Shown: one piece after another, positions 8,157 to 23,226 of the stretch
How the letters are laid out: each line of letters opens with the position of its first letter
Numbering within the stretch: position 1 is the first letter of the stretch
Origin: Bdellovibrionales bacterium
Lineage (GTDB): Bacteria; Bdellovibrionota; Bdellovibrionia; Bdellovibrionales; UBA1609
Direction: 5' to 3'
DNA length: 64,000 bases
NCBI GenBank assembly: GCA_027459485.1
Contig: DAIDIG010000011.1
Coordinates: 1-64,000 of the forward strand
Program-made: the position numbers and the translations under genes
The notes under the pieces: generated by a model
Database searches by the model: none
What the model was told of the DNA's origin: nothing
What the model saw: the letters and a program-made list of their open reading frames with translations, nothing else

Positions 8157-11100
8157 TTAATTCCAACCCGTCGTCCACGAAATGTAGCAGTAGCCGCCGG
8201 CGCTCATGATCGTATAAATGGTAGCGTTTGCGACAACACTGGCGTTGGCCGGCATGAAAGAAGACGTCATCGAGGTCGTGCCGGAATCCGAGTAACAATT
8301 AATTGTCGTCGTGCCCGTACCCGTGCCGCGCAGAATGAGTGTGTATGTCGCGCCATCTTTCATGTTCCAAATATTCGCCGTCACACTCGATTGCGTGCCG
8401 GTTGACCATACCATCGTGTTGCCTGAATTCGTATTGAACGTGAGCGGAGACGTGGCGGATGACGCTTGCGACGGGCTATACGCTTGGCCTTGAATTTTGG
8501 CATTTCCGTTCACGTTCAGCTTTTCAGTTAAGGTGGATGTGCCTATTCCTACGTTTTGAGACGTGTCGATCGTCATTGCGGCTGCGCCATTCGTCTCAAT
8601 CGACAAATTGTTCGCGTCGGTTGTGCCAAGAGTGCCGGCCGAACCGAATGCGTTGCCGCCGTTGACAAAGGCGCCTGAGGTGCCCGTGGTGTTAAGTGAC
8701 ACAACTCCCGACGAAACATTGAGCCCTGAACCGACTTGCATAAGACCGAGCTGGCCGGTCGTTGCTGTTTGAATGTTTGTATTCGATGCCGATGTGATGC
8801 GGCCTTTCGCGTCGACTGTGATGGCCGGGACGGCTGTCGCCGTACCATAACTTGCCGCCGTGACACCTGTGCTGGCGAGTGTGAGCGAGCCCGCGTTTGA
8901 CATTGTGGCGTCACCACTTACTGATACAGGAGCCCATTGCGAACTCGTATTGTTATAGGCAAAAATCTGAGCATCTGTCGGTGCGCTTGACGATACGGCC
9001 TTGCCTTGAATTTTACCAACAGTTGTCGCTGTCGACCCCGCGGTTGATGTCACGTCACCCGTGAGCGCGGGCATTTGCGTTGCGGCGACTGAGCCAGTCA
9101 AATCACTAAAGCTTGGTTGCGAAAGACTCGGCACACCCGCCGATGAAATCGAATTGACCCACTCATGCGCGATTGGCGTCACAGCCTCAACACCGCCGAT
9201 CGATGTCGTTGTTGGTGTGGCAAGTGAGATTGTGCCACTACCCGTGATCGGGCCACCCGTGAGACCTGTTCCTGTACCGACGCTTGTGACCGTACCGCCC
9301 GAGCCTGCGGCGGATGCCATAATCGACCACGCGCCAGAGTTATACTGATAAACTTTTTTCGTATCGGTTGCCATATAGATCGTGCCGGCACCGGGTGCCG
9401 CAGGTTTCGAAGCATCAAGACCTGTCTCAATACCAGGCGAGCCACCCAAGTTCTGCATTCCGTCGGTTATGCCGTAACCTGTCAGTGTCGTTGGACTTGT
9501 CCCAGCCGTCACTCGGCCGTAGGTATCAACCGTCACCGACGTATACGTTCCGGTCGCCACTCCACTCGTAGGCAGATCACTCGAGGTCAGCGCGCGAAAA
9601 GTCGGCGCTCCATTTGCGCCACTCGGAGCAGCAAGAACAGTATTCGCGGTTTGGCTTGCAAGCGTTGCCGAAAGCGTTCCGCTTGTCGTCACCGGCGAAC
9701 CCGTTACGCTAAAAATTGTCGGGAGCGTTAAACCTACGCTCGTGACCGTACCACCCGCCCCTGCCGCGGAGGCCATCAAAGCCCAGGCTCCCGAATTATA
9801 CTGATAGACTTTATTTGTATCGGTCGCAAAATAAACGGTTCCCGCCAAAGGCGCCGCCGGCTTACTCGTATCAAGACCGGTTAGTAATTCAGGAGTTCCC
9901 CCACCGTTTTGCACGCTGTCTGTGATGCCGTAACCTGCAAGCGTCGTCGGGTTTGTTCCGCCCGTCACGCGGCCGTACGTATCGACAGTCACTGACTTAT
10001 AAGTGCCTGTCGCCACTCCACTCATCGGTAGATCGCTCGAGGCGATCGTGCGAAAAGTCGGCGCGCCGGCAGCACCTGTCGGGGCCGCCAAGAAAGTCGC
10101 CTGCGCCTGTGAACTAAAGTTACTCGCGCCCACTGCAATGTTTGTGCAGACAAACGTATCGGTGGGCGAAGAATACGTGAGCGTTTGACCCGACGAACAC
10201 GTTGTCGGGAAAAACGGCGCATTGCCAGCCGCAGTCGAGCGAATATCGGCGATACCGATAAACGCATCGACATACTTAGACGTGCCATCGTATCTCAGCA
10301 CTTGCCCCATGCTTGTAGGCGCCGTTGTGTCGACGGACGTGCCTTCGATCTTTGCCACAGTTGTCGCTGTCGACCCCGCGGTTGACGTCACGTCGCCCGT
10401 GAGCGCGGGCATTTGCGACGATGTCACGCTACCCGAAAGATCACCAAACGAAGGCTGCGAAAGTTGTGGCACACCCGCCGATGAAATCGAATTGACCCAC
10501 TCATGCGCGACAGGATTGATCGCCTCAACACCGCCGATCGATGTCGTTGTTGGTGTGGCAAGAGAGATTGTGCCACTACCTGTGATCGGGCCACCCGTGA
10601 GACCTGTGCCCGTTGCCACATTCGTCACTGTACCGCTTGTTACGGTTGACCAAGATAAGTTGCCCGAACCGTCATTTTTTAGATAGGTGTTTGCCCCGCC
10701 TTGTGCTGCTGGCAAATTCATTGCGTAACTCGCAACTGAACTCGGGGGATTCACCGTCACCGTCCCAGAAGTAGAACCGTCAAATATGATTCCACCGAAG
10801 TTGGTGCGCCCCGAAGCATCGCGTTTCAAAATGGTGTTTGCGGTATCGACCGAAGTCGCGGCATTGGCAGCCACTTCAGCCGAGTGGATGTTCGCCGCCG
10901 TTGAACCGCCAACCGTTACTACCGTAGTTGCTGTAGTCCCCGCCGTGGACGTGACGTCGCCCGTGAGAGCCGGCATGCGCCCAGCGGCGACCGTGCCCGA
11001 AGCCAAATTGCTGGCGTTTAAATTTGTCAGTTGCGAACCGTCGACTGCCGGCAATTGTGCCGAGCCGTTCAGTTTCACGATTTGATTAGCACCGGTCCCC

Positions 11101-12572
11101 GAATTGAGTGTCAAAACGGGCGTTGTCGTCCCGCTGGCCACAGCGATATCGGTATTAGCTGAAGTAACGTTTGTGACCGTACCGCCCGAACCGACGGCTG
11201 ACGCCATGAGCGACCATGATCCCGAATTGAATTCATAAATTCGATGGGTGTCGGTCGCAAAATAAACCGTACCAGCTGCGGGAGCGGCCGGTTTGCTCGC
11301 ATCAAGCCCGGCCATCATGCCCGGGGCGCCACCTCCATTTTGAACGGCATCGGTGATTCCGTATCCACTGAGCGTCGTCGGGTTTGTGCCTGAAGTCACG
11401 CGGCCGTATGTATCTACAGCGACCGATTTGTACGTACCGGCCGCGACTCCACTTGCAGGCAAATCGGCGGCTACAAGCGCGCGAAATGCGGGCGCGGCAG
11501 CCACCCCGCTCGAAGGCCCTGCAAAGATCAAATTGGCATTTTGATTTGCGCTTGAAAGAATAGTCTCGGCGGCCGAACCATCCCAATAGCGAAGTTGATT
11601 GGTTGTCGTATTGACCCACATTGTACCCGTCGCGGTGAGGCCCATCCCCGCTAAAGTCGAAATCAATGACGTTTCTTGCGCGGCCGTGTATTTACCAGGC
11701 CCAATAGTGCCGGCGACCGAGAGTGAACCGTTTAAAATCAAATTTTGACTCGAATCGAGAGTCATCGCGAGACTAGTGCCCGAATAAAATTTAAGGCCCG
11801 TCGTGCCGTCCTGCGCTTGAATCGCGCCGAGTTGGGTCGCTCCACTTGAAAAATTAACGGTGTCCGTTCCACCACCGCCGCTGGCTGCATCCAACAAAAA
11901 TGAAGGGGCTGTTTTTTGAATTTCAAGATCGGCCGTCGTTGTCGAGGTGCCGATGCCGATACTGCCCGATGCTCCGGGCACGTAAATGTTCCCGCCCGTC
12001 GTAATACTGCCGGTCGTGCTGGTGTTGCCGTTCGCCTGCATGTACGGGCCGTTGCTGATCAATGTATTCAGCGCGGCTTGAGTGACGACTCCACTGACTT
12101 GAATGAAGCTCGCGGCGTCTTTGCCATCGAGGTTAAACGCATTCAGCGCAAAACCCGACGAACCGATCGTTTCCATCTGCGGCAGTGGCGTGCCATCCAC
12201 CACGAGCTGCAAAAGGCGCCAGTCGTTCGCACCGGGCGAATAGGTACCGGAGCAAGAATTGGAAATTGTCCCGCCATCGTTACTAAAAACTTGCGCGAGC
12301 GTGTTGGCGGGGCCCGTCGAATTCGTGCCGATGTTGACGGAAAACATACCGTAAGAGTCCGGCGTTACAGACTCGGTGTCTTCGTAAAGATAGCAACTGC
12401 CGGTCGGCGGATAAATTCGAAAATTGATCGTGACCGGGTAGTTTATCGGATTGCCGTTTGTATCGGTCACGCGCCCCTGAAAAGGCAGGAGATTCGGCAC
12501 TCCATTAGAGCTCACCGCAAAACTCGCGTACAACGTCACTAGTAATATGAGAGCGACTGACTTACGGCTCAA
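8157..12572 (-). CDS. Giant secreted fibre-like repeat protein (1471 residues)
   Basis: It begins at a TTG inside the end of the upstream lipoprotein gene, with GGGGGTGA just before it, and has a signal peptide (VALILLVTLYASFAVSS). An N-terminal folded part of about 170 residues (LPFQGRVTDTNGNPI, YPVTINFRIYPPTG) is followed by more than 1000 residues rich in Thr, Ser, Gly and Ala. That region is built from repeated modules (VDTYGRVT, LSGYGITD, GTVYFATDT, ALTGDVTSTAG) of the kind seen in phage tail fibres and large bacterial adhesins. Motifs of the type GIGTST followed by coiled-coil or LNVNGNAKIQG occur near both ends, as in trimeric fibre proteins. No peptidase S74 chaperone end is seen; the C-terminus holds a cysteine-containing beta domain (TTINCYSDSG, GGYCYISW). 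Likely a trimeric surface fibre or adhesin. Family membership is inference from repeat style. Confidence 0.75.
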   Translation of the reverse strand: MSRKSVALILLVTLYASFAVSSNGVPNLLPFQGRVTDTNGNPINYPVTINFRIYPPTGSCYLYEDTESVTPDSYGMFSVNIGTNSTGPANTLAQVFSNDGGTISNSCSGTYSPGANDWRLLQLVVDGTPLPQMETIGSSGFALNAFNLDGKDAASFIQVSGVVTQAALNTLISNGPYMQANGNTSTTGSITTGGNIYVPGASGSIGIGTSTTTADLEIQKTAPSFLLDAASGGGGTDTVNFSSGATQLGAIQAQDGTTGLKFYSGTSLAMTLDSSQNLILNGSLSVAGTIGPGKYTAAQETSLISTLAGMGLTATGTMWVNTTTNQLRYWDGSAAETILSSANQNANLIFAGPSSGVAAAPAFRALVAADLPASGVAAGTYKSVAVDTYGRVTSGTNPTTLSGYGITDAVQNGGGAPGMMAGLDASKPAAPAAGTVYFATDTHRIYEFNSGSWSLMASAVGSGGTVTNVTSANTDIAVASGTTTPVLTLNSGTGANQIVKLNGSAQLPAVDGSQLTNLNASNLASGTVAAGRMPALTGDVTSTAGTTATTVVTVGGSTAANIHSAEVAANAATSVDTANTILKRDASGRTNFGGIIFDGSTSGTVTVNPPSSVASYAMNLPAAQGGANTYLKNDGSGNLSWSTVTSGTVTNVATGTGLTGGPITGSGTISLATPTTTSIGGVEAINPVAHEWVNSISSAGVPQLSQPSFGDLSGSVTSSQMPALTGDVTSTAGSTATTVAKIEGTSVDTTAPTSMGQVLRYDGTSKYVDAFIGIADIRSTAAGNAPFFPTTCSSGQTLTYSSPTDTFVCTNIAVGASNFSSQAQATFLAAPTGAAGAPTFRTIASSDLPMSGVATGTYKSVTVDTYGRVTGGTNPTTLAGYGITDSVQNGGGTPELLTGLDTSKPAAPLAGTVYFATDTNKVYQYNSGAWALMASAAGAGGTVTSVGLTLPTIFSVTGSPVTTSGTLSATLASQTANTVLAAPSGANGAPTFRALTSSDLPTSGVATGTYTSVTVDTYGRVTAGTSPTTLTGYGITDGMQNLGGSPGIETGLDASKPAAPGAGTIYMATDTKKVYQYNSGAWSIMASAAGSGGTVTSVGTGTGLTGGPITGSGTISLATPTTTSIGGVEAVTPIAHEWVNSISSAGVPSLSQPSFSDLTGSVAATQMPALTGDVTSTAGSTATTVGKIQGKAVSSSAPTDAQIFAYNNTSSQWAPVSVSGDATMSNAGSLTLASTGVTAASYGTATAVPAITVDAKGRITSASNTNIQTATTGQLGLMQVGSGLNVSSGVVSLNTTGTSGAFVNGGNAFGSAGTLGTTDANNLSIETNGAAAMTIDTSQNVGIGTSTLTEKLNVNGNAKIQGQAYSPSQASSATSPLTFNTNSGNTMVWSTGTQSSVTANIWNMKDGATYTLILRGTGTGTTTINCYSDSGTTSMTSSFMPANASVVANATIYTIMSAGGYCYISWTTGWN
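9019..9269 (-). repeat. Fibre module type 2, copy 2
   Basis: A 251-base unit nearly identical to 10358-10608, encoding GGPITGSGTISLA, GGVEAVTPIAHEWV, SAGVPSLSQPSF and ALTGDVTSTAG. The shared length and sequence point to a recent internal duplication or gene conversion. Confidence 0.88.
9280..9604 (-). repeat. Fibre module type 1, copy C
   Basis: About 325 bases. It encodes PTFRALTSSDLP, VDTYGRVTAG, GYGITDGMQNLGG, GLDASKPAAP, GTIYMATDT and GGTVTSV, and runs directly into a type 2 module. Confidence 0.85.
9738..10061 (-). repeat. Fibre module type 1, copy B
   Basis: About 324 bases. It encodes PTFRTIASSDLP, VDTYGRVTGG, GYGITDSVQNGGG, GLDTSKPAAP, GTVYFATDT and GGTVTSV. It is closest by eye to copy C, with long matching DNA runs. 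Confidence 0.85.
10358..10608 (-). repeat. Fibre module type 2, copy 1
   Basis: A 251-base unit encoding TGLTGGPITGSGTISLA, TSIGGVEAINPVAHEWV, SAGVPQLSQPSF and ALTGDVTSTAG. The second copy at 9019-9269 has the same length and looks nearly identical at DNA level. Confidence 0.88.
11168..11493 (-). repeat. Fibre module type 1, copy A
   Basis: About 326 bases encoding the module that runs from AFRALVAADLP through VDTYGRVTSG, GYGITDAVQNGGG, GLDASKPAAP and GTVYFATDT to GGTVTNV. Copies B and C encode the same order of motifs at near-equal length. Confidence 0.85.
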
Positions 12573-13119
12573 AAGTCACCCCCGGCAAATACGTTGTCAC
12601 AATTTGAGATGCACTTTGCAACGTTACGCCGTTGATTAAACCCGATGCATTTTGGGTGAGACTCGAGTCATCGGACGATGAGGTATTTACAAGCGTCAAC
12701 GAAGGCGATGTCGGTGGCAGCAGATATCGCACGAGCACATGAGCCGTGCTTGTGGTAGAGAGTTTCGAACTTGCGCGCGCATAGACGTTCATATACTGCG
12801 GCACTGCGATTGAAATCGAAAACTGGCCGGTTGGGCACGCCCCCGCGATTTGCGTCCAAGTGCTATTGTCGGTTGAATATTCAAGCGTGTATGTTTTAGG
12901 GTCGCATGAGCCCTGCACGATAGCCGTGTGGCTTGGGCTGTTGATGATCCCTTTATTGTTGGCACCGGAAAACGCGGGGGCCTCAATCGGCATGAGATCG
13001 CTCACAGAAGGTGGAGGTGATTTCATACAAGAGCAAAGGACGAACATGGCACAAAAGGAGACACTGACGCCGTTAGCGCGCCATCTGCCATTTGTTGCAT
13101 GTCCACTTTGCGCCTGCAT
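12562..13119 (-). CDS. Small exported lipoprotein upstream of the fibre gene
   Basis: About 185 residues from the ATG at 13119; a GTG at 13125 is also in frame. The start is preceded by AGGTGCGT. A hydrophobic stretch ends in FVLCSC, a plausible lipobox, then KSPPPSVSD as a surface linker. The rest (YTLEYSTDNSTWTQIAGACP, MNVYARASSK, HVLVRYLLPPTSPSLTLVN) reads as a single FN3- or Ig-like beta domain with two cysteines. It overlaps the 1471-residue fibre gene by 11 bases, so the two are translationally coupled, and it heads the lipoprotein-fibre-LamG operon. It may anchor or guide the fibre at the outer membrane; that role is inferred only from position. Confidence 0.72.
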   Translation of the reverse strand: MQAQSGHATNGRWRANGVSVSFCAMFVLCSCMKSPPPSVSDLMPIEAPAFSGANNKGIINSPSHTAIVQGSCDPKTYTLEYSTDNSTWTQIAGACPTGQFSISIAVPQYMNVYARASSKLSTTSTAHVLVRYLLPPTSPSLTLVNTSSSDDSSLTQNASGLINGVTLQSASQIVTTYLPGVTFEP

Positions 13120-13433
13120 ACGCACCTGCCCTAGCTGCTAAAACGAGCGGAACTCCCCATCCGCGTCAAAACCGTTACATATTATTCGGCAGCACTGCGG
13201 CAAACCTTTAATTTCTGGATTCGTACGTCCTTTATGGAAAATTCTCGAACTGAAACAAATCAATCACGATCACCACCCGAACCAACTGACTTCTCAATCG
13301 AATGGCCCCGCATTAGAACTTGATCGGAAACCTAGACCAACGTCCTGATCATTACAGAAATGATTCTCGACAGCTTCAAAAATTTTGCGGGATGATCTCG
13401 ACTAAAGACGCGCAACGCGCGCAAGGAGGGGTC
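13120..13433. other. Divergent intergenic region, no gene seen
   Basis: About 310 bases between the divergent fibre operon and nuclease gene. It must hold both promoters, but no confident -35/-10 pair stands out. An AAGGAGGGG ribosome site at the right end sets the nuclease start at 13434. Confidence 0.6.
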
Positions 13434-14444
13434 ATGAAAGGGGTGAAAGCACGGGTCTGCAAACTTGCGGTTCTATTCATCGCAGGCGGCAGCATTATCG
13501 GTTTTTCGAATAGTTCGTGGGCATGGGGAGCAATGGGCCACGAGGCCATTGCAATGATTGCGCAACAGAATATGTCCTCAGCTGCGCTCGCCAAAGTTCG
13601 ATCTATTCTTGGCGGCATGTCGATGGAGCAATGTGCGGTTTGGCCCGACAATATCAAACACCAATCCGGCTGGCAGCACACGGCATCCTATCACTTCGTC
13701 AACGTGAAACTCGGGCAAACTTATTTTCAACAATACAGCCGACCCGGCTTTTTAGAAAAGGGCGACGTCTTACGCGCGACATTGAAAGCGGAAGATTTAT
13801 TGCGCGACAGCTCCACTTCGCGGACCGAAAAGAAATACGCCCTTTGCTTTCTCGAACACTTTGAGGGTGATTTGCACCAACCCCTGCACGAGGCCAACCG
13901 TGCTCTAGGTGGCAATCAAATTAAAATTAGTTTCTTCGGCAGAAGTACAAACCTCCATGCAATATGGGATTATGTAATGTTCAACGAAATCACCTGGGGC
14001 CAACCCAACTCGCCGAATGGGTACCAAAACATCTCCTCTCAAGACATTTCGAATTTCGTAAGTTTACTGCCGACGCCCTCAGCGGCTCAAATCTCGACAT
14101 GGCAGAACTCATACGTGAGAGACTGGTCGCGAGATGCGCGCTCGAAAGACATTTCCATTTATCGAGATTGGACAGGCGACAGCCAGTCTTACTTTAGCAA
14201 ATACGGCCCCTATGCCGAAGAAATGCTAGAAAAAGCCGGCTATCGATTGGCTGCCTACCTTGACGCCATTATGACAAATCAACCGTTTCAAGCGCAAAAG
14301 GCACAGGCCTTCCGCCAAGAAATACTGGCCCACATGGGCGGCACCGACCAGTATCCTATCGATCTCACTCCCTCAAACGGATCGACGCCGAATAGTGGCT
14401 CAAATAGCGGTTCGCCGTGGCGCCGTAGACGACGTCACTGGTAA
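13434..14444 (+). CDS. Secreted S1/P1 family zinc nuclease with Arg-rich tail
   Basis: The ATG at 13434 has a strong ribosome site (AAGGAGGGG); an upstream in-frame start at 13320 is less likely. The 336-residue product has a signal peptide ending SSWA, so the mature protein would begin with Trp31, the N-terminal zinc ligand of the family. All nine zinc ligands can be placed by eye: W31, H36 (MGH), D72 (WPD), H87 (YHF), H142 and D146 (HFEGD), H152 (PLH), H175 (NLH) and D179 (IWD). Such enzymes cut single-stranded DNA and RNA and release 5' nucleotides. The last 25 residues are a Gly/Ser/Asn linker closed by PWRRRRRHW, unusual for the family. It probably scavenges nucleic acid in the periplasm or outside the cell. 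Confidence 0.92.
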   Translation: MKGVKARVCKLAVLFIAGGSIIGFSNSSWAWGAMGHEAIAMIAQQNMSSAALAKVRSILGGMSMEQCAVWPDNIKHQSGWQHTASYHFVNVKLGQTYFQQYSRPGFLEKGDVLRATLKAEDLLRDSSTSRTEKKYALCFLEHFEGDLHQPLHEANRALGGNQIKISFFGRSTNLHAIWDYVMFNEITWGQPNSPNGYQNISSQDISNFVSLLPTPSAAQISTWQNSYVRDWSRDARSKDISIYRDWTGDSQSYFSKYGPYAEEMLEKAGYRLAAYLDAIMTNQPFQAQKAQAFRQEILAHMGGTDQYPIDLTPSNGSTPNSGSNSGSPWRRRRRHW

Positions 14445-14459
14445 TAGATTTTGTTTCTG

Positions 14460-14495
14460 AATCCAGGTATACGCGTGAACCGGTATACCTGGATT
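14460..14495. terminator. Strong hairpin downstream of the nuclease gene
   Basis: AATCCAGGTATAC (14460-14472) and GTATACCTGGATT (14483-14495) form a perfect 13-bp stem with a 10-base loop, 15 bases after the nuclease stop. It could terminate the nuclease transcript, but no long T-run follows. A protein-binding palindrome ahead of the next gene is the alternative. Confidence 0.5.
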
Positions 14496-14539
14496 TCGGC
14501 GCAGTTGCCTTACACAATTCGCGCTGCTATTTCTCTATT

Positions 14540-15223
14540 ATGAGCCCGACCCAGCGAAAACCGGCGGCCCAAGATTTCGATGCTAAACTGCTTTTACTTT
14601 TCAAACAGTATGCTGATTATATTCAACGGGCGGGCAAGTCCGTAGGTTTTCTCTCCGACGGCCATGCGCGGCGGCTTTTGGGCAGCCTTAAAGACGATCG
14701 CAAACATTTGGCCATTAACCAACTCACGAATCAAATGGCTGTTTTCGACGAGGTTCTGGCTCACAGTGAAAAGCTAACGGATTCACCGAAGCTCCTTTGG
14801 AGATATTTAAACAAAATCGGATACAGGCCCTGCGCCGACATTTTTGACAAGATTGAAGATAACGACGTTGTCGAAGTTTATGGCTCCGATCAAATTCATA
14901 TTTTTCAGAATTTCAATTTTTTTGATTGGATTAGCATTCCTCTCGAGCAAATCCTCAGCCTCACTTGGTACGAAAACACCAAAAGGGATGCCGAAATTCA
15001 GAAGGCGCTGTTTAGAGAAGCATATCGTGTGATTAGCGGAGAGGTTAAGACGACGTTTAGCCCCAACGTACCTTGGCATTGGATCGAAGAGATCGACACG
15101 GTCGGGTTACATCGATTTGAAATTCAAATAAAATGGGTTTCGCCAATTTTTTCAAATCATCAAACGATTGGATTTATTTGCGTCAACGAATGCCGCAATC
15201 TTATCCGTACACGGCCCGCCTGA
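14540..15223 (+). CDS. Uncharacterised 227-residue cytoplasmic protein
   Basis: No signal peptide or membrane segment is seen. The N-terminal half (about 1-100) is helical and charged (FDAKLLLLFKQYADYIQ, LLGSLKDDRKHLAINQL). The C-terminal half looks like a mixed alpha/beta domain (VVEVYGSDQIHIFQNFNFF, RFEIQIKWVSPIF, TIGFICVNEC). I do not recognise a family. It ends tail to tail with an XRE regulator, with a 23-base overlap of coding sequence, so the pair may be linked in function or regulation. A PAS- or ligand-sensing-like fold is possible for the second half, but that is only a guess. Confidence 0.72.
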   Translation: MSPTQRKPAAQDFDAKLLLLFKQYADYIQRAGKSVGFLSDGHARRLLGSLKDDRKHLAINQLTNQMAVFDEVLAHSEKLTDSPKLLWRYLNKIGYRPCADIFDKIEDNDVVEVYGSDQIHIFQNFNFFDWISIPLEQILSLTWYENTKRDAEIQKALFREAYRVISGEVKTTFSPNVPWHWIEEIDTVGLHRFEIQIKWVSPIFSNHQTIGFICVNECRNLIRTRPA

Positions 15224-15536: not shown

Positions 15537-15770
15537 AAGTGAATAGTTACTTACGTCCGCGTTTGGGTTCATCGGCAATTGTTGATCTATGTTGGCCGAT
15601 CCTGGTCCGTCGTCTCGTGACCCAGACGCGGTACGTTTTGAGTCGCCTGTATGTTGGGCCTTAGTCTAAATGCCCTCCGACGATCGTCCAAAATGAGACT
15701 CGCTCCCCTGTAGTGCAACAATATTTGACCGATGCATAATATTGAGCAGCGGACTAAAGGAGAATTTGAA

Positions 15771-16391
15771 GTGAAACAACTTGTCTTGCTTATGCTGGTT
15801 GTCGGCGCTGCTTTAGTCGGCTGTTCAACCAGCCAACTGCGCGTACAATCCAGCCCAGACGCGGCCGATGTTTATCTTGTATCTAACGACGGGACCGCGA
15901 CTAAATTGGGTAAAACGCCGTTACTCTTAGACGGGCGCCAATATCCCCAGCTTTATTCTGATCTTACCCAAATACGGGTGGTCAAAGACGGCTATATAGC
16001 CCAGTCCGTTGTAATTCCGCACCTTGGAATGTTCGCCGGAGACGGCGAGGTGAATTTCAACCTCGCACAAACGGAGTTACCTAAAACTTGTACCGATCAA
16101 GAAGATTCATTTAATAATCTGGCCAAAGGCATTGCGGAGTCGGCAAACCTCATTCAAAAACGCCGTTTCGCGGACGCCATGCTGCTGCTCCAAAATTTGA
16201 GCCTCAAATATACTACGGTCGCCGTACTCTATGACCTACAGGGGAATGTCTATTACTTACAAGGTGATTTCGCCCATGCCCTGGACGCCTATAAACACGC
16301 CGACAAATTAGCGCCGAATAATGCTGAAACCCTACTTATGATTCGTCGCCTCCGCGATATGCAAGGCAGCGATAACGGGAGCAGTTCATGA
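15771..16391 (+). CDS. PEGA/TPR lipoprotein, first gene of the motor-like operon
   Basis: I choose the GTG at 15771, because AAAGGAG ends 8 bases upstream and the lipoprotein signal begins there (KQLVLLMLVVGAALVGC); an ATG at 15732 would add 13 unlikely residues. Cys18 is the lipidated residue. Residues about 22-98 resemble a PEGA domain (LRVQSSPDAADVYLV, LGKTPLLLDG, IRVVKDGY). Residues about 115-195 hold TPR-like helices (FADAMLLLQNL, LYDLQGNVYYLQGDFAHALD, YKHADKLAPNNAETLL). PEGA and TPR parts suggest a periplasmic scaffold that binds partner proteins. Its stop overlaps the MotA-like start by 4 bases, so it is coupled to the stator genes. Confidence 0.85.
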   Translation: MKQLVLLMLVVGAALVGCSTSQLRVQSSPDAADVYLVSNDGTATKLGKTPLLLDGRQYPQLYSDLTQIRVVKDGYIAQSVVIPHLGMFAGDGEVNFNLAQTELPKTCTDQEDSFNNLAKGIAESANLIQKRRFADAMLLLQNLSLKYTTVAVLYDLQGNVYYLQGDFAHALDAYKHADKLAPNNAETLLMIRRLRDMQGSDNGSSS

Positions 16392-17176
16392 TTTACCTAC
16401 TTGGCATTCTAGTAGCCGTATTTTCGCTAGTTGCGGCCGTGCTCCATCTTCATCAACAAGCCGCACATTTTTGGGATTTTGTTGCGTTTGCCTGCGTAAG
16501 TGGCGGGACTATAGCCGTGGCCCTCATGATCTTTCCATGGCAGTACAGACGGTCTATTTTTTCGGCAATCGGAACTCTTTTTTCTCCACGCGGGATTCAA
16601 GAGGCCGACACGATCCAAGTCTGCATGGAATTCTTTAAATCGATAAGCTCAGGCGCTCGGTCTTGGGACGAGCCAGCGCGTACGCTTAGTGATGAAATTT
16701 TACGTGATGGCGCTGAATTGCTTGCTTTAGGTTTTAACACCGAAAAGATTCATGAAATACTCGAAGAGCGAATCTACCAAAGCTTTGAGCGATCGCAAAA
16801 AATTGCAAATGCGTTTCGCTCGCTCTCGAAATACCCTCCGGCCTTCGGTCTCGCGGGCACGGTTCTGGGCCTCGTGACGTTAATGCGAAAAGTCTCAGCC
16901 GGTGCGGATGCGAAGCAAACCGGCTTTATGATGGCGATCGCGCTGATGGCAACTTTTTACGGATTATTGACAGCTAACCTGCTTGTCGCACCTCTCGGCG
17001 AAAATTTGGCGAAAACAGCGGTCGCTCAAAGAAAATCTGCGGAAATTGCATTACAGACAATAATTTTGCTGGCCAACAAGGCCAGTCTTCTTGAAGCACA
17101 AGAGGTGTTGAACTCTTACGTCGCGAAAAACGAGCGCATAAACGCTATTTCAACCGCCGCGCAGGAGGCCGCCTAA
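16388..17176 (+). CDS. MotA-like stator subunit
   Basis: This 262-residue protein has four membrane helices: about 2-20, 29-49, 150-168 and 183-203. It has a large cytoplasmic loop between the second and third (about 50-148) and a short C-terminal tail, the MotA plan. The third helix carries PPAFGLAGTVLGLVTLM, matching the MotA proline region (P151), and the fourth is MAIALMATFYGLLTANLLVAPLGENL. The loop has the usual LRDGAELL and EILEERI segments that contact FliG in flagellar stators. With MotB it would form a 5:2 ion channel that turns around its partner. The gene overlaps its neighbours by 4 and 1 bases. It differs from TolQ/ExbB by length and by the loop. Confidence 0.88.
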   Translation: MIYLLGILVAVFSLVAAVLHLHQQAAHFWDFVAFACVSGGTIAVALMIFPWQYRRSIFSAIGTLFSPRGIQEADTIQVCMEFFKSISSGARSWDEPARTLSDEILRDGAELLALGFNTEKIHEILEERIYQSFERSQKIANAFRSLSKYPPAFGLAGTVLGLVTLMRKVSAGADAKQTGFMMAIALMATFYGLLTANLLVAPLGENLAKTAVAQRKSAEIALQTIILLANKASLLEAQEVLNSYVAKNERINAISTAAQEAA

Positions 17177-17883
17177 TGCCGGTACTTCGACGCCGCCGCC
17201 TAACGGATCACTTTGAAATCGATACCGAAGGAAGTTGGGCCATCAGCTATGGCGACATGATCACTTTACTATTGACGTTTTTCGTATTGTTTTACTCCAC
17301 CCACCATAAACTGGATCGCCTAAATGCGATGGAGACCGCGCTTCTTGTGAAACTGAAAGAAAGCGCAACGAATAACCCGACGACAATACAACATCCGGGT
17401 CAGGACCCAATGATGGTCAATGATGTCATGCAGAGACTCGACGCGCGCGCTTATAAAGTCGGGAGCAAATTGATCGTCGAATTTCCGAATGTCTCATTTT
17501 TTGATTTGGGCCAAGTGGGCCTTACCAAAAGCGGCATAAACCAGCTCGCTCAATTTGTAAAAGTTTACATGCCTTATGCGGGCAATTACATGCTCGGTAT
17601 ACGCGCCTATACGGACAATAAAAAAGTTCGCAAATCGGCTCGTCGCCGATTTCATGACAATCTCGAGCTTTCCGCTCTTCGCGCTGTTGCGACCATGAGA
17701 AAACTTCAAGTTCTCGGAATACCCCTAAATCGGATGCGACTTGGGGGTTATGGCGAACTGCGAATGACTGCAGCCGCACTCGATCGCGCCATCGCATCGA
17801 CGCCCGACTACAACGTGCACGGATTAGCACTTGCTAGAAAAATAGTATTGGTCGTTGAACCCGAACCACGAGAGCAGTTATGA
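17176..17883 (+). CDS. MotB-like stator subunit with OmpA-type peptidoglycan-binding domain
   Basis: The protein has 235 residues. A single membrane helix (WAISYGDMITLLLTFFVLFY, about 21-40) carries the ion-binding aspartate D27, as in MotB. A linker of about 60 residues, which includes the plug region, leads to an OmpA-like domain (about 100-228). Its peptidoglycan-binding residues are present: D147 in YTDN and R169 in ELSALRA, followed by GIPLNRMRLGGYGE. The domain is a little irregular, with extra basic residues (VRKSARRRFHDN) between the two. It should anchor the stator to the wall while protons (or sodium) pass at D27. Its start overlaps the MotA-like stop by 1 base and its stop overlaps the next start by 4. 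Confidence 0.9.
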   Translation: MPVLRRRRLTDHFEIDTEGSWAISYGDMITLLLTFFVLFYSTHHKLDRLNAMETALLVKLKESATNNPTTIQHPGQDPMMVNDVMQRLDARAYKVGSKLIVEFPNVSFFDLGQVGLTKSGINQLAQFVKVYMPYAGNYMLGIRAYTDNKKVRKSARRRFHDNLELSALRAVATMRKLQVLGIPLNRMRLGGYGELRMTAAALDRAIASTPDYNVHGLALARKIVLVVEPEPREQL

Positions 17884-19607
17884 AAAATGATGAATGTTTT
17901 TCTATTTCCAAGACACTGATTGTTGCCGCTATCCTCTCATTCGGCATTATTCTGCATGCACAAGAAATAATGAAATTACCTCGCGTGGCGGAGCTTGAAG
18001 ACAGTTTGAAAGGTAACGCATCCGAATACATTAAGGCGCGATTTCCGAACACTCCTTTTATGGTGACCGTGAGCGTGGACCCTCTGCGCCGGGATGCCCC
18101 TGAACTGAATTCAAACAATACCGGAGATTTGCCCTTTTTTGATGCTGACACCGGCGAAGAAATCCGCGACGAGTGGGATGATCCTCAGGTCCCGTTAAGT
18201 GCACTTTTGAATCGGGTAAAGAGAATTCAAGTGGATATATCCGTACCCTCGACGTTGCGTGAAGGCGACATAGATGAACTTAAAAATTCAATTTTTCAAG
18301 ATCTCCATTTAACGCCTGCGCGCGACGAAGTGAACATAACACGGCGAGATTGGGTGACGAATCAAGTTCCCTGGGTCACCATCTACTCTGCCTGCGCCGC
18401 CCTCTTTGTTTTACTTTTCGGGCTTTTGATCATCAACCGCTCATCGGCAAAGCAAATAGCCAGAGCGTTAACAAACATGAAACTTGGCGGCACCAACGCA
18501 TCGAGCCCAGCATCGCTGCCCCCGCCGTCATTAGGCGAGAGCGATTCGAAGCGCCTTGGTCTCGCGGCCAACCAAGAACTTAAATTCAACGATCCAATAA
18601 AAATGAAGGAGCTTGCGTCGAGACATATCGAATTTCTGCTAAATGCAAAGGCCTTCCCCAACCATCAAGACATTTTCGTTTTAGACAACTTAGGTAAGCA
18701 GCACCCGAAGAAATTGGGCGCAATTCTGGCCGAATTCCCGGCTGAAATGCAACGAAAGCTATTCTCTTATAGCTCGGATTTTTGTTGGGTCGAGGCCCTC
18801 AACGAGCCCGGATTTTTAGATTACGAATGCCTTGAGGTCTTTCAGGCTCTCATCCAAAACCCGCGAAATGAAATTGTCACCGATTGGTGCCGGGCAATAT
18901 TGTCCGTTTGGCGGCTTGGCGATGCACGCACACAATTTCTCAAAAGCCTTTCGAAAGAAGAAGCTTTTGCCTTGCTCTCCGAGATGCCAAAGGCCATAGC
19001 CGTATCCGAGGCGAGACGAGCTTTTCCGGGCGCGTGGGCCGTTATCCTCGAAACGAATTTTAAGGCGGAAAAGATCTCCCTCCCACGAGTACGTGAAATA
19101 ATTGAGTCGGCCGTACGAGTTCTACCTCTTCATGATATTGAGATGGTGCGAAATTACCGAGAAGAGCGCGACTTGTTGGATTATTTGAGAACGGTTGACC
19201 CCGCCGAAGAACGAGATATATACGGAGCCGCCCCGGTCACATCGCTGATACATAAACTTCGGCCGCCATTTTATCCCTTGTTTGATCAAAATGCCGAAAG
19301 TCTAAAATGGTTTGTGATGAATATAGACATTGAACGCTGGGCTTACGCGCTTTTCAACGTGCCGAAATCTGAGCGGTCTAAAATTGATGTTCACTTAAGT
19401 GAAAAGCAGAAGTTTTTGTTGGTCGAACGCTTCAAAAATTTTGATGCCAACCCCCCGAGCAAGCAATCGGTTGGCGCCGCCCGCGAACAAATTGGCAGCG
19501 CCCTTCATCGTTGGCTGACAGATAAAAATGTCGCGGATAATTTTAACTCGGACGAAGGCGCTCTAGACGCGCCCGCAAGCGAGAAACCAGAGGCGGATGT
19601 TGCGTAG
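17880..19607 (+). CDS. FliF-like/FliG-like fused rotor protein candidate
   Basis: This 575-residue protein has an N-terminal hydrophobic helix or signal (about 11-27), a periplasmic part (28-165), a second membrane helix (166-185) and a long cytoplasmic part (186-575). Residues about 110-185 match the end of FliF: VKRIQVDISVPSTLREGDI, an ELKNSIFQDLHLT helix, then the membrane helix. Residues 274-295 (QHPKKLGAILAEFPAEM) match the EHPQ motif of the FliG middle domain. Residues about 455-545 match FliG-C: FYPLFDQNAESLKWFVMNID, AYALFNVP, then HLSEKQKFLLVERFKNF as the torque helix. By hand alignment to E. coli FliG, R281, D288 and R297 correspond to K509, E516 and K528, keeping charge. The FliG N domain, which normally binds FliF, seems absent. 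Probably a one-piece rotor for the MotA/B-like pair. Homology is inferred without a search. Confidence 0.7.
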   Translation: MKNDECFSISKTLIVAAILSFGIILHAQEIMKLPRVAELEDSLKGNASEYIKARFPNTPFMVTVSVDPLRRDAPELNSNNTGDLPFFDADTGEEIRDEWDDPQVPLSALLNRVKRIQVDISVPSTLREGDIDELKNSIFQDLHLTPARDEVNITRRDWVTNQVPWVTIYSACAALFVLLFGLLIINRSSAKQIARALTNMKLGGTNASSPASLPPPSLGESDSKRLGLAANQELKFNDPIKMKELASRHIEFLLNAKAFPNHQDIFVLDNLGKQHPKKLGAILAEFPAEMQRKLFSYSSDFCWVEALNEPGFLDYECLEVFQALIQNPRNEIVTDWCRAILSVWRLGDARTQFLKSLSKEEAFALLSEMPKAIAVSEARRAFPGAWAVILETNFKAEKISLPRVREIIESAVRVLPLHDIEMVRNYREERDLLDYLRTVDPAEERDIYGAAPVTSLIHKLRPPFYPLFDQNAESLKWFVMNIDIERWAYALFNVPKSERSKIDVHLSEKQKFLLVERFKNFDANPPSKQSVGAAREQIGSALHRWLTDKNVADNFNSDEGALDAPASEKPEADVA

Positions 19608-20175
19608 CGATTATTCCAGACCAATCGCAAACCTAATCGCGCTTGGTCTGCTTAGTTTGTCATTATCGGTCAAAGCGGGAACGCTCGAGGCATCCCTCGG
19701 TGCCTATCAGTTCAATGCGACAAACTCTAATAATGGAGCAAAGAACTCTCTTGCGGGGTTTGGCGCCTATCATGTCGCCTATCACAACCCGATTTGGTCG
19801 CACTTCGAAGCGGATGCAGGATATTCGATTATCGCCACAAACGGTTTCGGCGGCGACCTGGCATTCGGATTCGACATCGGCATCAACTATTTTCCATTTA
19901 CAGAAAATACCGATATCAAATTTAAAACGCCAATTGCTTCGGGTGTTTTTGGTAGCGTTTGGCGGCCCTTCATTGGGCTTGGATTTCACCAACGCAATTT
20001 TCAAAGCACAAGTTCGCAGTATGCCGGGGCCGGGCTAAAAATCGGCGCCGAATATGAATGGAAACAGTCGATGAGCCTGATCGGGTATGCCCGATATATA
20101 AGTTTGGGCGGACCGAACCAATCTCAGGCGAATCAAACGGAACTGCTATTTGGCGCGCTCTATCATCTTTGGTGA
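19597..20175 (+). CDS. Small outer-membrane beta-barrel protein
   Basis: This 192-residue protein has a signal peptide (ANLIALGLLSLSLSVKA, cleaved before GTLEASLG). The rest is made of amphipathic strands about 10 residues long with polar turns: LEASLGAYQF, GFGAYHVAYH, HFEADAGYSII, DLAFGFDIGINYFPF, SVWRPFIGLGFHQR and YAGAGLKIGAEYEW, with a final LLFGALYHLW ending in an aromatic residue. This is the pattern of an 8-strand OmpA/OmpW-like barrel with C-terminal aromatic assembly signal. The ATG overlaps the rotor-like gene by 11 bases, so it belongs to the same operon and could carry the complex across the outer membrane. Confidence 0.8.
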   Translation: MLRSDYSRPIANLIALGLLSLSLSVKAGTLEASLGAYQFNATNSNNGAKNSLAGFGAYHVAYHNPIWSHFEADAGYSIIATNGFGGDLAFGFDIGINYFPFTENTDIKFKTPIASGVFGSVWRPFIGLGFHQRNFQSTSSQYAGAGLKIGAEYEWKQSMSLIGYARYISLGGPNQSQANQTELLFGALYHLW

Positions 20176-20178
20176 TAA

Positions 20179-23100
20179 ATGAAGAGATTACGGTATCTAA
20201 TTTTCATATTTATCGGACTTACAGGCTGCTCGAAAGGCAGCAGCCAGTTCGCCAATATACTGAATAACCCGAATGGGACGGGCACCGGCACGTCTAGTAT
20301 TTCGATCACGAGCTATATCCCCGCCTCCGCTTCTGTCACAGTCAAAGAAACTGATACAGAAAATTTTCTTGTATCGGCTACCGGCCAAGGAACTCTTCAG
20401 TACTCTTGGACTGTTGACGGTGCGGCCGTTGGGTCGAACTCCCCTTCGTATAGTTTGATTGCTCCTAATTTTACTGTTGCTAATCACACCGTGAAGGTCG
20501 TGATCAATGATAACATCGGCACCACTTCACAAACATGGAGCGTGAAAGTCAATGGCCCGCCGGTTATAGGGACATCAACACCATCGGTTTCAACGGTCAG
20601 CCTACAGCAAAACACAGCGCTTTCTTATTCGGTCTCGGCGACCGACCCGAACAATGACACTTTAACTTATGTCTGGAAGCTTGACGGGCAATCGAACATT
20701 CTAACCTCGACCACGAATACAGTGACGTGGACACCGACTGCCACACAAATTGGAGCGCATACCATTAGCGTCGATATATACGACGGGCCGATATCAGACC
20801 CCGGCACGTACGATATCAACCAGTCTTGGACGACGAATGTAAATAACTTTTCGAATGCCTGTAATAATATGCAGGACTACAGCGAGACAAATACGTCCTG
20901 CGTTTTGGTTGGCATCCCGGGCATCGGCGATGGCTTAAATCCGGCACTTTCACCTTCAAGTATTTATATAACACCGACCGCATTTGCCCAGACGTCGAAC
21001 GGCGACTTGTTTATAGCAGACGCTGGCAATCACGTTATTTGGTACTACAATCTCTATTCGTCGCCGAGCACGACTGTATTGGGCGTAACCGTGCCGATTA
21101 ACACGATGAAAGTTGTGGCCGGGGTCGGCATGGCCTCATCGGGCAACAGCGCAAGCACGAAGGCGCTTCGAAATTTTTTAAATTCACCCAACGGTATTTA
21201 TTATGACGGTTCGAATCTCTATATTGCTGACACGAATAACAACCGAATATTAAAAGTAGATAACACCGGAACCGTTACGTCCGTGTTGACCTCGGGCTGC
21301 AATTCTCCCCGGCAGATGACAATTGTCGGCAGCTATCTATATGTCGCGTGTTATTCATCCAATATAATCAAAGCGATTAACACTTCGACTTTGGCAGCTA
21401 CCACTTTTGCCGGTACCGGTTCTGCCGGCAACCCAGCGAATACGAATCAAAGTTCTTTTACGGATCCAACGGACGGTGTACTCAATGGCCCGTATGGCAT
21501 AGCAGCCGATTCCGCCGGTGATATATTTGTTGGTGAATACGGCGGTTGTCGCATTCGCATGTACAATCAAAGCGGCGCAACCGTCACGTTGTACGGCAGT
21601 TACTCGATTAGCAATAACATGCAGCGAATAATTGTCGGCACTTCGGGCTCGCCAAGTTGCACGCACGTGACCGGTAACGCCGTGTCCGGAGCTAGAACAT
21701 ATCACGTGAGAAGCCTTTCTTTCGTATCACCGACATTGTTAACTTGGACGGACGACATGAGTACTGTGTCAGCCGTAAACTTTTCGACGACGTCGGACTC
21801 GCTGTTCGGTGTAGCGATACCTTCTTACTATGCGCAATCTATGCTCGGCACTTATAGCGGATACATTGGTGAAGGATTACTCCCCAACCAAACCCGGTTC
21901 AATGTCCCTAATGCTGACATTATCGACCCCAACACCGGCAACCTCTACATTGCCGACACGAACAATCTGCGGCTTCGACGGTTTCTTGCCTCAAATAATA
22001 AGACCGAACTCGTTGCCGGCAACGGATCTGTTCGTGGGCAATCGAACGCCGGGCAGGGTCAAGTCAATGCCAACCAAGAAAAGATGTACGGAATTTTCGG
22101 ATTAGCAGTCGATCATTCTTCAGGCGAAATTTTTGTTTCGGATTCATACAATAATCGAATTCGCGACGTGAACGTGTACGGGCAAGTCACTCAAGCCGCG
22201 GGCACCGGCGCTGTCGGGCTTGGACAAGAACAAGACGCGTACCCGTCGAACGTGACAATGAACCAACCTCGGGGGCTTGTGCTGATCGATTCGACGGCCA
22301 GCTTCGGCGGCGATCTGGTTTGGGTTGATTCTCAAAACGACCAGATCCGACTGTATAATCGTGGCTCAACGGACCAAACTTTTTTTGGAGTCACCGTGCC
22401 TGCGGGGATGGTTGCAACAATTGCCGGCAATGGTTCGCCTGGCGACGCGACAAGCGGTTCGGCACTTACGGCCGCGTTTAATAATCCGACAGGTGTCACC
22501 TTCGACGGCACCAACCTCTATGTCGCTGACACCAACAACAGCTGCGTTAAAATGATTGATCCTTCTGGCAATCTCTCGGTTGTAGCAGGCACGTGCGGAT
22601 CAGCTGGCAATCTAGATGGTTATGCCGGCACAGGTCGCCTGAACGGACCGCAGGGCATCGATTACTATTCGAACGGAACTCATCAAGGGATACTTATCGC
22701 CGACAGTAACAATGGGCGAATTCGGTTTTATCGAATCGCCGGCACTTCGACTCTCTTATTTGGTACAGTGATTTCGGTCGGGCAAACCGTCACTATCGGT
22801 TGCGGAGGCACATTTCACGACGAGGGCATCAATGCAACTCTGACCCCTTGCAATGGAGTCTACGATGTTGCAACCGTCGGTACGCAGGCTTGCTTCACCA
22901 ATATGTATTACCACAATGCCCGGTGCATCACTCAAACGGGCCAGGTGAACACGGTTCTCGGGGGGCCTGAAGGCATAAGCAATACAACACCGCTTTACGG
23001 GCCCGGAGGATCGTTTGCAAATAGCGACTATGATCCGCTCAACCCAAATTACACGAGTCAAAACGGGGTCACGGCATTTTTACTACCGTCACCGATTGCC

Positions 23101-23226
23101 GAACCTTCGCTGACTTCCAGCTATGGTCAGGTTGTGTTCCCGCGCTCCATTCGCGCAATCGACAGCGCCACGATACTCGTCGGCGAATTCTACCTTGGCC
23201 TCATCCGCGAAGTAAAACTGCCGTAA
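20179..23226 (+). CDS. Very large NHL beta-propeller lipoprotein
   Basis: This 1015-residue protein is a lipoprotein (YLIFIFIGLTGC, Cys17). Residues about 40-220 form two Ig/cadherin-like domains (YSWTVDGAAVGSNSPSYSL, LSYSVSATDPNNDTLTYVW). From about 250 onward there are at least nine NHL-type blades, each with a core like PNGIYYDG followed by LYIADTNNNRILKV; examples are LFIADAGNHVIW, IFVSDSYNNRIRDV, LYVADTNNSCVKM and ILIADSNNGRIRF. They should build one or two propellers that bind proteins or glycans at the surface. It starts 3 bases after the barrel gene, which places it as the outermost part of the motor-like operon. No enzymatic residues are visible. Confidence 0.87.
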   Translation: MKRLRYLIFIFIGLTGCSKGSSQFANILNNPNGTGTGTSSISITSYIPASASVTVKETDTENFLVSATGQGTLQYSWTVDGAAVGSNSPSYSLIAPNFTVANHTVKVVINDNIGTTSQTWSVKVNGPPVIGTSTPSVSTVSLQQNTALSYSVSATDPNNDTLTYVWKLDGQSNILTSTTNTVTWTPTATQIGAHTISVDIYDGPISDPGTYDINQSWTTNVNNFSNACNNMQDYSETNTSCVLVGIPGIGDGLNPALSPSSIYITPTAFAQTSNGDLFIADAGNHVIWYYNLYSSPSTTVLGVTVPINTMKVVAGVGMASSGNSASTKALRNFLNSPNGIYYDGSNLYIADTNNNRILKVDNTGTVTSVLTSGCNSPRQMTIVGSYLYVACYSSNIIKAINTSTLAATTFAGTGSAGNPANTNQSSFTDPTDGVLNGPYGIAADSAGDIFVGEYGGCRIRMYNQSGATVTLYGSYSISNNMQRIIVGTSGSPSCTHVTGNAVSGARTYHVRSLSFVSPTLLTWTDDMSTVSAVNFSTTSDSLFGVAIPSYYAQSMLGTYSGYIGEGLLPNQTRFNVPNADIIDPNTGNLYIADTNNLRLRRFLASNNKTELVAGNGSVRGQSNAGQGQVNANQEKMYGIFGLAVDHSSGEIFVSDSYNNRIRDVNVYGQVTQAAGTGAVGLGQEQDAYPSNVTMNQPRGLVLIDSTASFGGDLVWVDSQNDQIRLYNRGSTDQTFFGVTVPAGMVATIAGNGSPGDATSGSALTAAFNNPTGVTFDGTNLYVADTNNSCVKMIDPSGNLSVVAGTCGSAGNLDGYAGTGRLNGPQGIDYYSNGTHQGILIADSNNGRIRFYRIAGTSTLLFGTVISVGQTVTIGCGGTFHDEGINATLTPCNGVYDVATVGTQACFTNMYYHNARCITQTGQVNTVLGGPEGISNTTPLYGPGGSFANSDYDPLNPNYTSQNGVTAFLLPSPIAEPSLTSSYGQVVFPRSIRAIDSATILVGEFYLGLIREVKLP

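Follow-up and report, generated by a model that had tools for sequence, protein, structure and literature searches.

The operon at positions 15771–23226 of the window, by which we mean the whole analysed stretch of 64,000 nucleotides from contig DAIDIG010000011.1 of a Bdellovibrionales bacterium, encodes a real and conserved motor-like system that combines flagellar stator and rotor modules with outer-membrane and surface parts and that, as far as we searched, is unreported. It comprises six plus-strand ORFs (g1–g6) with successive overlaps of 4, 1, 4, and 11 bases followed by a 3-base gap. A strong ribosome-binding site, AAAGGAGA (15756–15763, plus strand), read directly from the sequence, lies 7 bases 5′ of the GTG start codon of g1 at 15771. 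This layout is as an earlier note had described it. The assignments that the note had made for all six proteins were borne out by Pfam and NCBIfam searches, which retrieved MotA, MotB, TPR/PEGA, FliG_C (weakly), and NHL, and by profile and fold comparisons. The operon is far beyond chance, because the g1–g5 block recurs in the same order in dozens of genomes whose g4 products are 22–77% identical to the window copy. No genes for an export apparatus, rod, hook, filament, or C-ring were found in or adjoining it.

The rotor candidate is g4 (17880–19607, plus strand), a FliF-FliG fusion of 575 residues. Evidence from the single sequence is weak, because the FliG_C match of the window copy (E 0.0017, 19.0 bits) falls under the Pfam cut-off of 23.3, and hhalign comparisons of window-type g4 with narrow FliG and FliF sets of the phylum gave E-values of only 0.01 and 3e-4 at low probability. 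A profile of 29 relatives, in turn, matches the torque domain of solved FliG structures with E-values of 1.6e-4 to 4e-4. In addition, an AlphaFold model based on 34 relatives reached a mean pLDDT of 80.9, with most of the cytoplasmic part >90, and its best 25 Foldseek matches are all FliG or FliF structures; their E-values (0.002–0.2) are modest, which is to be expected of a chain with several domains. According to VIA-align, the C-domain (residues 461–550) superimposes on FliG (1qc7_B) with a Z score of 12.5 and an rmsd of 2.0 Å over 88 of 89 residues, and g4 aligns with stator-bound FliG (8ucs_H) at Z 12.2 and an rmsd of 1.8. The match to the RBM3 domain of FliF (8z5v) reaches Z 12.4 with an rmsd of 2.4 Å over 94 residues, compared to Z 8.7 for the best unrelated fold (OsmC family). 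Despite the weak pairwise hhalign scores, we thus regard the FliG/FliF identity of g4 as settled by its predicted structure and the wider family. The earlier note had called g4 a FliF-like/FliG-like fusion and had conceded that a placement outside FliF/FliG would refute its reading; profiles and model agree with the fusion, and no such placement was obtained.

These FliG and FliF RBM3 matches therefore define the order of elements within the chain, all of them on the plus strand: a signal sequence, a periplasmic RBM3-like domain (residues 31–159; 17970–18356) delimited by structural alignment, one transmembrane helix at approximately residues 162–188 (18363–18443), recognized by its hydrophobic sequence and modeled as a helix from 165 to 201, and the cytoplasmic FliG-like domains (residues 239–550; 18594–19529), again placed by structural alignment. 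RBM1, RBM2, and the β-collar of FliF are absent according to both model and alignment; the periplasmic part measures only about 130 residues, and the alignment skips the collar, at the position of which g4 carries a short loop, DEWD (residues 97–100; 18168–18179), that is invariant in 34 of 34 sequences. In the torque helix, Lys509 (19404–19406) corresponds in position to FliG Arg281; 32 of 33 sequences have Lys here and the remaining one has Arg. Residue 516, which corresponds to FliG Asp288, is acidic (Glu or Asp) in 24. In the flagellar motor, MotA Glu98 and Arg90 are reported to contact FliG Arg281 and Asp289 (PMC7564593). The FliM-binding EHPQR motif is not recognizable in the g4 family consensus, and the register of the middle domain remains uncertain. 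Engineered FliF-FliG fusions are reported to form rings (PMC6079021, PMC11481574). The genome also encodes, on a different contig, flhA and a full flagellar FliG preceded by FliF. Elsewhere in this genome a FliG_C-only protein of 229 residues adjoins a FecR-like protein (L002, 1222–2943); FliG_C-only proteins of approximately 145–250 residues recur across the class, and FecR-like genes also occur near the motor set in loci L118 and L121.

The two genes preceding g4 encode the stator. The product of g2 (16388–17176, plus strand; Pfam MotA_ExbB, 2e-18) is a MotA-type subunit with four transmembrane helices and the long MotA cytoplasmic loop, and its whole length aligns to structures of flagellar MotA, the best solved relatives being 6ysf and 8ucs (E 2e-42 and 4e-42). 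The region equivalent to MotA Arg90 and Glu98 could be aligned, but these positions are weakly conserved in the family profile. In a MotA/ExbB tree of 53 proteins, the 13 window-type MotA form a single clade (100/100), and the solved flagellar MotA fall into a separate group (87/90). The MotB-type subunit g3 (17176–17883, plus strand; Pfam MotB_plug 7.5e-10, OmpA 1.8e-5) combines an SYGDMITLLL helix containing Asp27 with an OmpA-type peptidoglycan-binding domain and matches MotB structures (6ysf, E 6e-20). Its family has retained, without exception, the ion-binding Asp27 as well as Asp147 and Arg169 of the OmpA-type domain. The stator identity of g2 and g3 and the rotor identity of g4 are both well supported, and homology together with the conserved residues supports a putative action of this stator on a FliG-type rotor.

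Most g2 and g4 relatives end in -AA (24 of 34 and 24 of 28, respectively, versus 2 of 217 other ORFs of the same loci); in the window, the C-terminal codons specify -AA in g2 (17168–17173) and -VA in g4 (19599–19604). These ends resemble the SsrA tag of the same genome (GNDFQLAA), and a ClpXP/ClpAP degron is a possible interpretation based on sequence resemblance alone. The notion that this ending is specific to the motor was weakened by several other MotA of these genomes that share it, while flagellar FliG does not.

The remaining three genes, also on the plus strand, encode envelope and surface proteins. The lipoprotein g1 (15771–16391) has the lipobox LVGC with Cys18 followed by Ser at +2, from which sorting to the periplasmic face of the outer membrane is predicted. 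It contains a PEGA-like domain and TPR (Pfam 0.11 and 4e-5 for the window copy); TPR were detected in 27 of 28 relatives and PEGA (<0.01) in nine, and C18, G47, T49, and P50 are invariant in the family. g5 (19597–20175) encodes an outer-membrane β-barrel with a signal peptide and a C-terminal aromatic residue, usually Phe or Trp in the family. Its AlphaFold model (mean pLDDT 90.5) has eight strands and most closely resembles NspA, OmpA, and OmpW (E 2e-6 to 2e-5). The last gene, g6 (20179–23226), encodes a lipoprotein (LTGC) whose N-terminal part has Ig-like repeats and whose C-terminal part has the repeats of an NHL β-propeller (Pfam NHL, 8.7e-31). The g6 protein thus joins Ig/cadherin/PKD-type repeats to the propeller; its relatives reach up to 2,568 residues, and surface exposure of g6 is inferred. 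Upstream of the operon, the window also encodes, on the minus strand, a tail-fiber- or surface-like repeat protein of 1471 residues (8157–12572) adjoining a lipoprotein-like ORF of 187 residues.

Of 369 Bdellovibrionota genomes, about 70 contain window-type g4 at strong scores, and these extend past the class to several other families. When 84,980 species were scanned with a pattern-based method and a tighter g4 alignment, 34 loci emerged, all but two of them in MAGs titled as members of the Bdellovibrionota group; the exceptions are titled Proteobacteria (L122) and merely "bacterium" (L109). No window-type set was detected in a scan of viral contigs or by tblastn against plasmids. Of 32 loci from the class, 21 contain g1–g5 complete and in order; among the other 11, g5 is missing from one, and the remaining ten are truncated, broken, or interrupted by a contig end. 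A g6 homolog lies inside or beside 22 of the 32 loci, in downstream, upstream, or divergent position. Locus L117 has the set in two parts, g2-g3-g4 and, nearby on the opposite strand, g1-g5-g6; the surface genes thus remain linked even where the operon is broken, which speaks for all six forming one set.

The six-gene set described in the earlier note is real, but it is not confined to the form seen in the window, since a diverged version occurs widely across the phylum, Bdellovibrio itself included. A MotA profile search revealed loci grouping MotA, MotB, a PEGA/TPR lipoprotein, a barrel, and a diverged FliFG of 558–792 residues. Once a coiled coil and a lytic transglycosylase, both wrongly included, had been removed, the alignment of these FliFG proteins matched the window-type g4 set with an hhalign E-value of 3.6e-18 over 498 columns and FliG with 2e-12 over 289 columns. 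A search with the diverged profile, restricted to Bdellovibrionota, listed 321 genomes; many of the matches are ordinary flagellar FliG, and approximately 100 are long FliFG-type frames. One such Bdellovibrio locus, with MotA at 2.92 Mb, has the order motA, motB, PEGA/TPR lipoprotein, barrel, a 325-residue protein, and FliFG, and is presumably the motA2-bd3021/motB2-bd3020 locus of B. bacteriovorus HD100. These two genes have been named as the motAB2 pair of HD100 and treated as a flagellar stator (PMC11323537). The FliFG of this operon is an ORF of 577 residues, located some 3 kb 3′ of motB2. The motAB2 operon shares motA, motB, the PEGA/TPR lipoprotein, the barrel, and the FliFG fusion with the window, but differs in gene order, the additional 325-residue protein gene, the lack of an NHL gene, and a MotA belonging to another clade. 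Upstream of the motAB2-type operon, locus L218 encodes a VWA-domain and an Ig/PKD protein (9920–11326 and 12542–14983), both adhesin-like, with the Ig/PKD protein located about 4 kb from the operon. A VWA adhesin, CglB, is used in myxobacterial gliding. In one genome of the genus Bdellovibrio (G008), the motor set occurs as three diverged copies (L210, L211, and L212), two of them with a divergently encoded large protein.

Based on the established families, folds, conserved gene order, and key residues of the set, we consider it probable that the operon encodes a stator-rotor machine that is distinct from the flagellum. In such a machine, MotA5-MotB2 stators formed by g2 and g3 would be anchored to peptidoglycan via the OmpA-type domain of MotB, and ion flow would rotate the MotA ring, which would drive the charged torque helix in the FliG part of g4. 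The g4 ring would serve as MS-ring and rotor in one protein, rotating in the inner membrane and periplasm; because its FliG part is fused via a single transmembrane helix to the RBM3 of FliF, the whole ring would have to turn. It would do so without RBM1, RBM2, a β-collar, FliM/FliN, an export gate, a rod, or a filament, and its periplasmic face, with the DEWD loop at the collar position, may transmit force to g1, g5, and g6. The output would most likely be work at the surface, either gliding or an adhesion-coupled movement, and swimming would be left to the flagellum of the same cell. Ring assembly, rotation, and the path of force are inferred from the protein families, gliding is likewise an inference, and no data exist on ring formation, rotation, or localization.

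For a surface output count the g5 barrel and the adhesin-type repeats of g6. That this output is gliding is a tentative suggestion, to which we give somewhat less than an even chance: it is inferred from gene content and from a stated gap in knowledge, as the gliding machinery of Bdellovibrio was called unidentified in a 2026 review (PMC13104615), and it has to compete with Glt/Agl-type clusters, which are existing candidates for gliding in Bdellovibrio (PMC9140294, PMC12546842), and is weakened by the flagella that are always present. The complete proposal, in which a categorically new rotary machine with a fused FliF-FliG ring, its own MotAB, and outer-membrane and adhesin parts powers gliding in Bdellovibrionota, and the motAB2 operon would be related to this machine rather than encode a flagellar stator, is slightly more doubtful still.

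Against a separate machine count the weak conservation at the Arg90/Glu98 positions, the genus that includes the putative HD100 genome (g30), all 24 genomes of which lack the window-type set and only some of which have the diverged one, and the presence of FlhA, a flagellar export protein, in 46 of 46 carrier genomes of good quality. Because every such carrier encodes FlhA, independence from the flagellum is not proven, and the "stand-alone" motor of the earlier note is strongly suggested by gene content but cannot be claimed beyond that. An accessory function in the flagellum, in which an alternative stator and an extra FliFG ring would add to or replace part of the motor and the outer-membrane parts would act on the sheathed flagellum, appears improbable but is the most serious competitor. 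Apart from the FlhA pattern, it could account for flagellin genes near the motor set in L122 and a fliG at 12 kb in G064 (contig C69), and in a 2011 study of the three motAB pairs each reportedly contributed to swimming. The HD100-type cousin moreover contains motAB2, a flagellar stator according to the literature, but FliL (Bd1076) bound MotB3, and an interaction with MotA2 or MotB2 was not seen (PMC11323537).

The genomic context also speaks against an accessory function, as the genes lie outside flagellar operons. A location within flagellar operons of relatives would, by the earlier note's own account, have refuted its reading, and was not seen among the neighbors scanned: for 103 neighboring proteins, the only flagellar family among the 25 most frequent of 121 families is flagellin, contributed by two genes of the single locus L122, although isolated flagellar neighbors could be concealed among the rarer families. 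Flagellar genes within 35 kb of the motor set occur in two cases (G064 and G158), a proximity that we judged to be no more than chance, and simple flagellar sigma-factor patterns match 5′ of g1 in only one of 30 loci. Likewise, a FliG fused to a FliF without RBM1, RBM2, and collar, and a MotA forming a separate clade, are not what an accessory would suggest. The co-occurrence with FlhA may instead stem from shared loss in reduced genomes, because the genomes of the class that lack FliG are mostly small.

Less likely again is a system that energizes outer-membrane work such as adhesin export, envelope maintenance, or uptake in a Tol/TonB-like role without locomotion. The PEGA/TPR lipoprotein, small barrel, and large NHL lipoprotein encoded in one operon would suit this function, but the stator is of the MotA and not the TolQ/ExbB type, and we know of no role of a FliG rotor in Tol or Ton. 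That the set is merely what is left of a duplicated flagellar motor, decayed or moonlighting and no longer acting as a motor, is suggested only by the FliG_C score of the window copy below the Pfam cut-off and can hardly be reconciled with intact reading frames and with key residues kept across several taxonomic families at identities down to about 22%.

The separate stator-rotor machine that we favor would differ from all systems with which we compared it. MotA, MotB, the FliG C-domain, and FliF RBM3 are homologous to those of the flagellar motor by profile and fold, and the basic torque-helix residue is conserved; in contrast, FliF and FliG are one protein without RBM1, RBM2, and β-collar, and the operon lacks genes for FliM/FliN, export, rod, hook, and filament but has its own outer-membrane and surface genes. 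The 5:2 motors of Tol/Ton and Zorya likewise employ stators of the MotA/ExbB superfamily, but to our knowledge possess no rotor homologous to FliG. The GldLM/type IX motor of Bacteroidota is similar by analogy, as it couples a 5:2 inner-membrane motor to outer-membrane lipoproteins and a surface adhesin, but its stators are not homologous to MotAB (PMC13104615) and it has no FliG-type rotor. Agl-Glt of Myxococcus also links a proton-driven stator to outer-membrane and adhesin parts; its stators, however, described as of the MotAB/TolQR class, lack a FliG/FliF rotor and travel along the cell (in part PMC13104615). In the searches made, which included no Glt profile, the operon proteins matched families other than Glt/Agl. 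Consistent with the earlier note, which knew of no described system with this gene set, we found no description of a natural FliF-FliG fusion outside flagella or of this operon in the literature searched, which did not cover most subscription journals.

We are aware of no rotor of the FliG type other than the flagellar one. If shown to work without the flagellum, the system would be categorically new. A minimal motor free of secretion parts would demonstrate that stator and rotor, one half of the flagellum, can exist or be put to new use when the other half, the export machinery, is absent, and would thereby bear on flagellar evolution. For the Bdellovibrio group, the operon offers a candidate motor, ring, and adhesin for gliding, and it raises doubt as to whether each of the three motAB pairs of HD100 works for the flagellum alone, as has been assumed.
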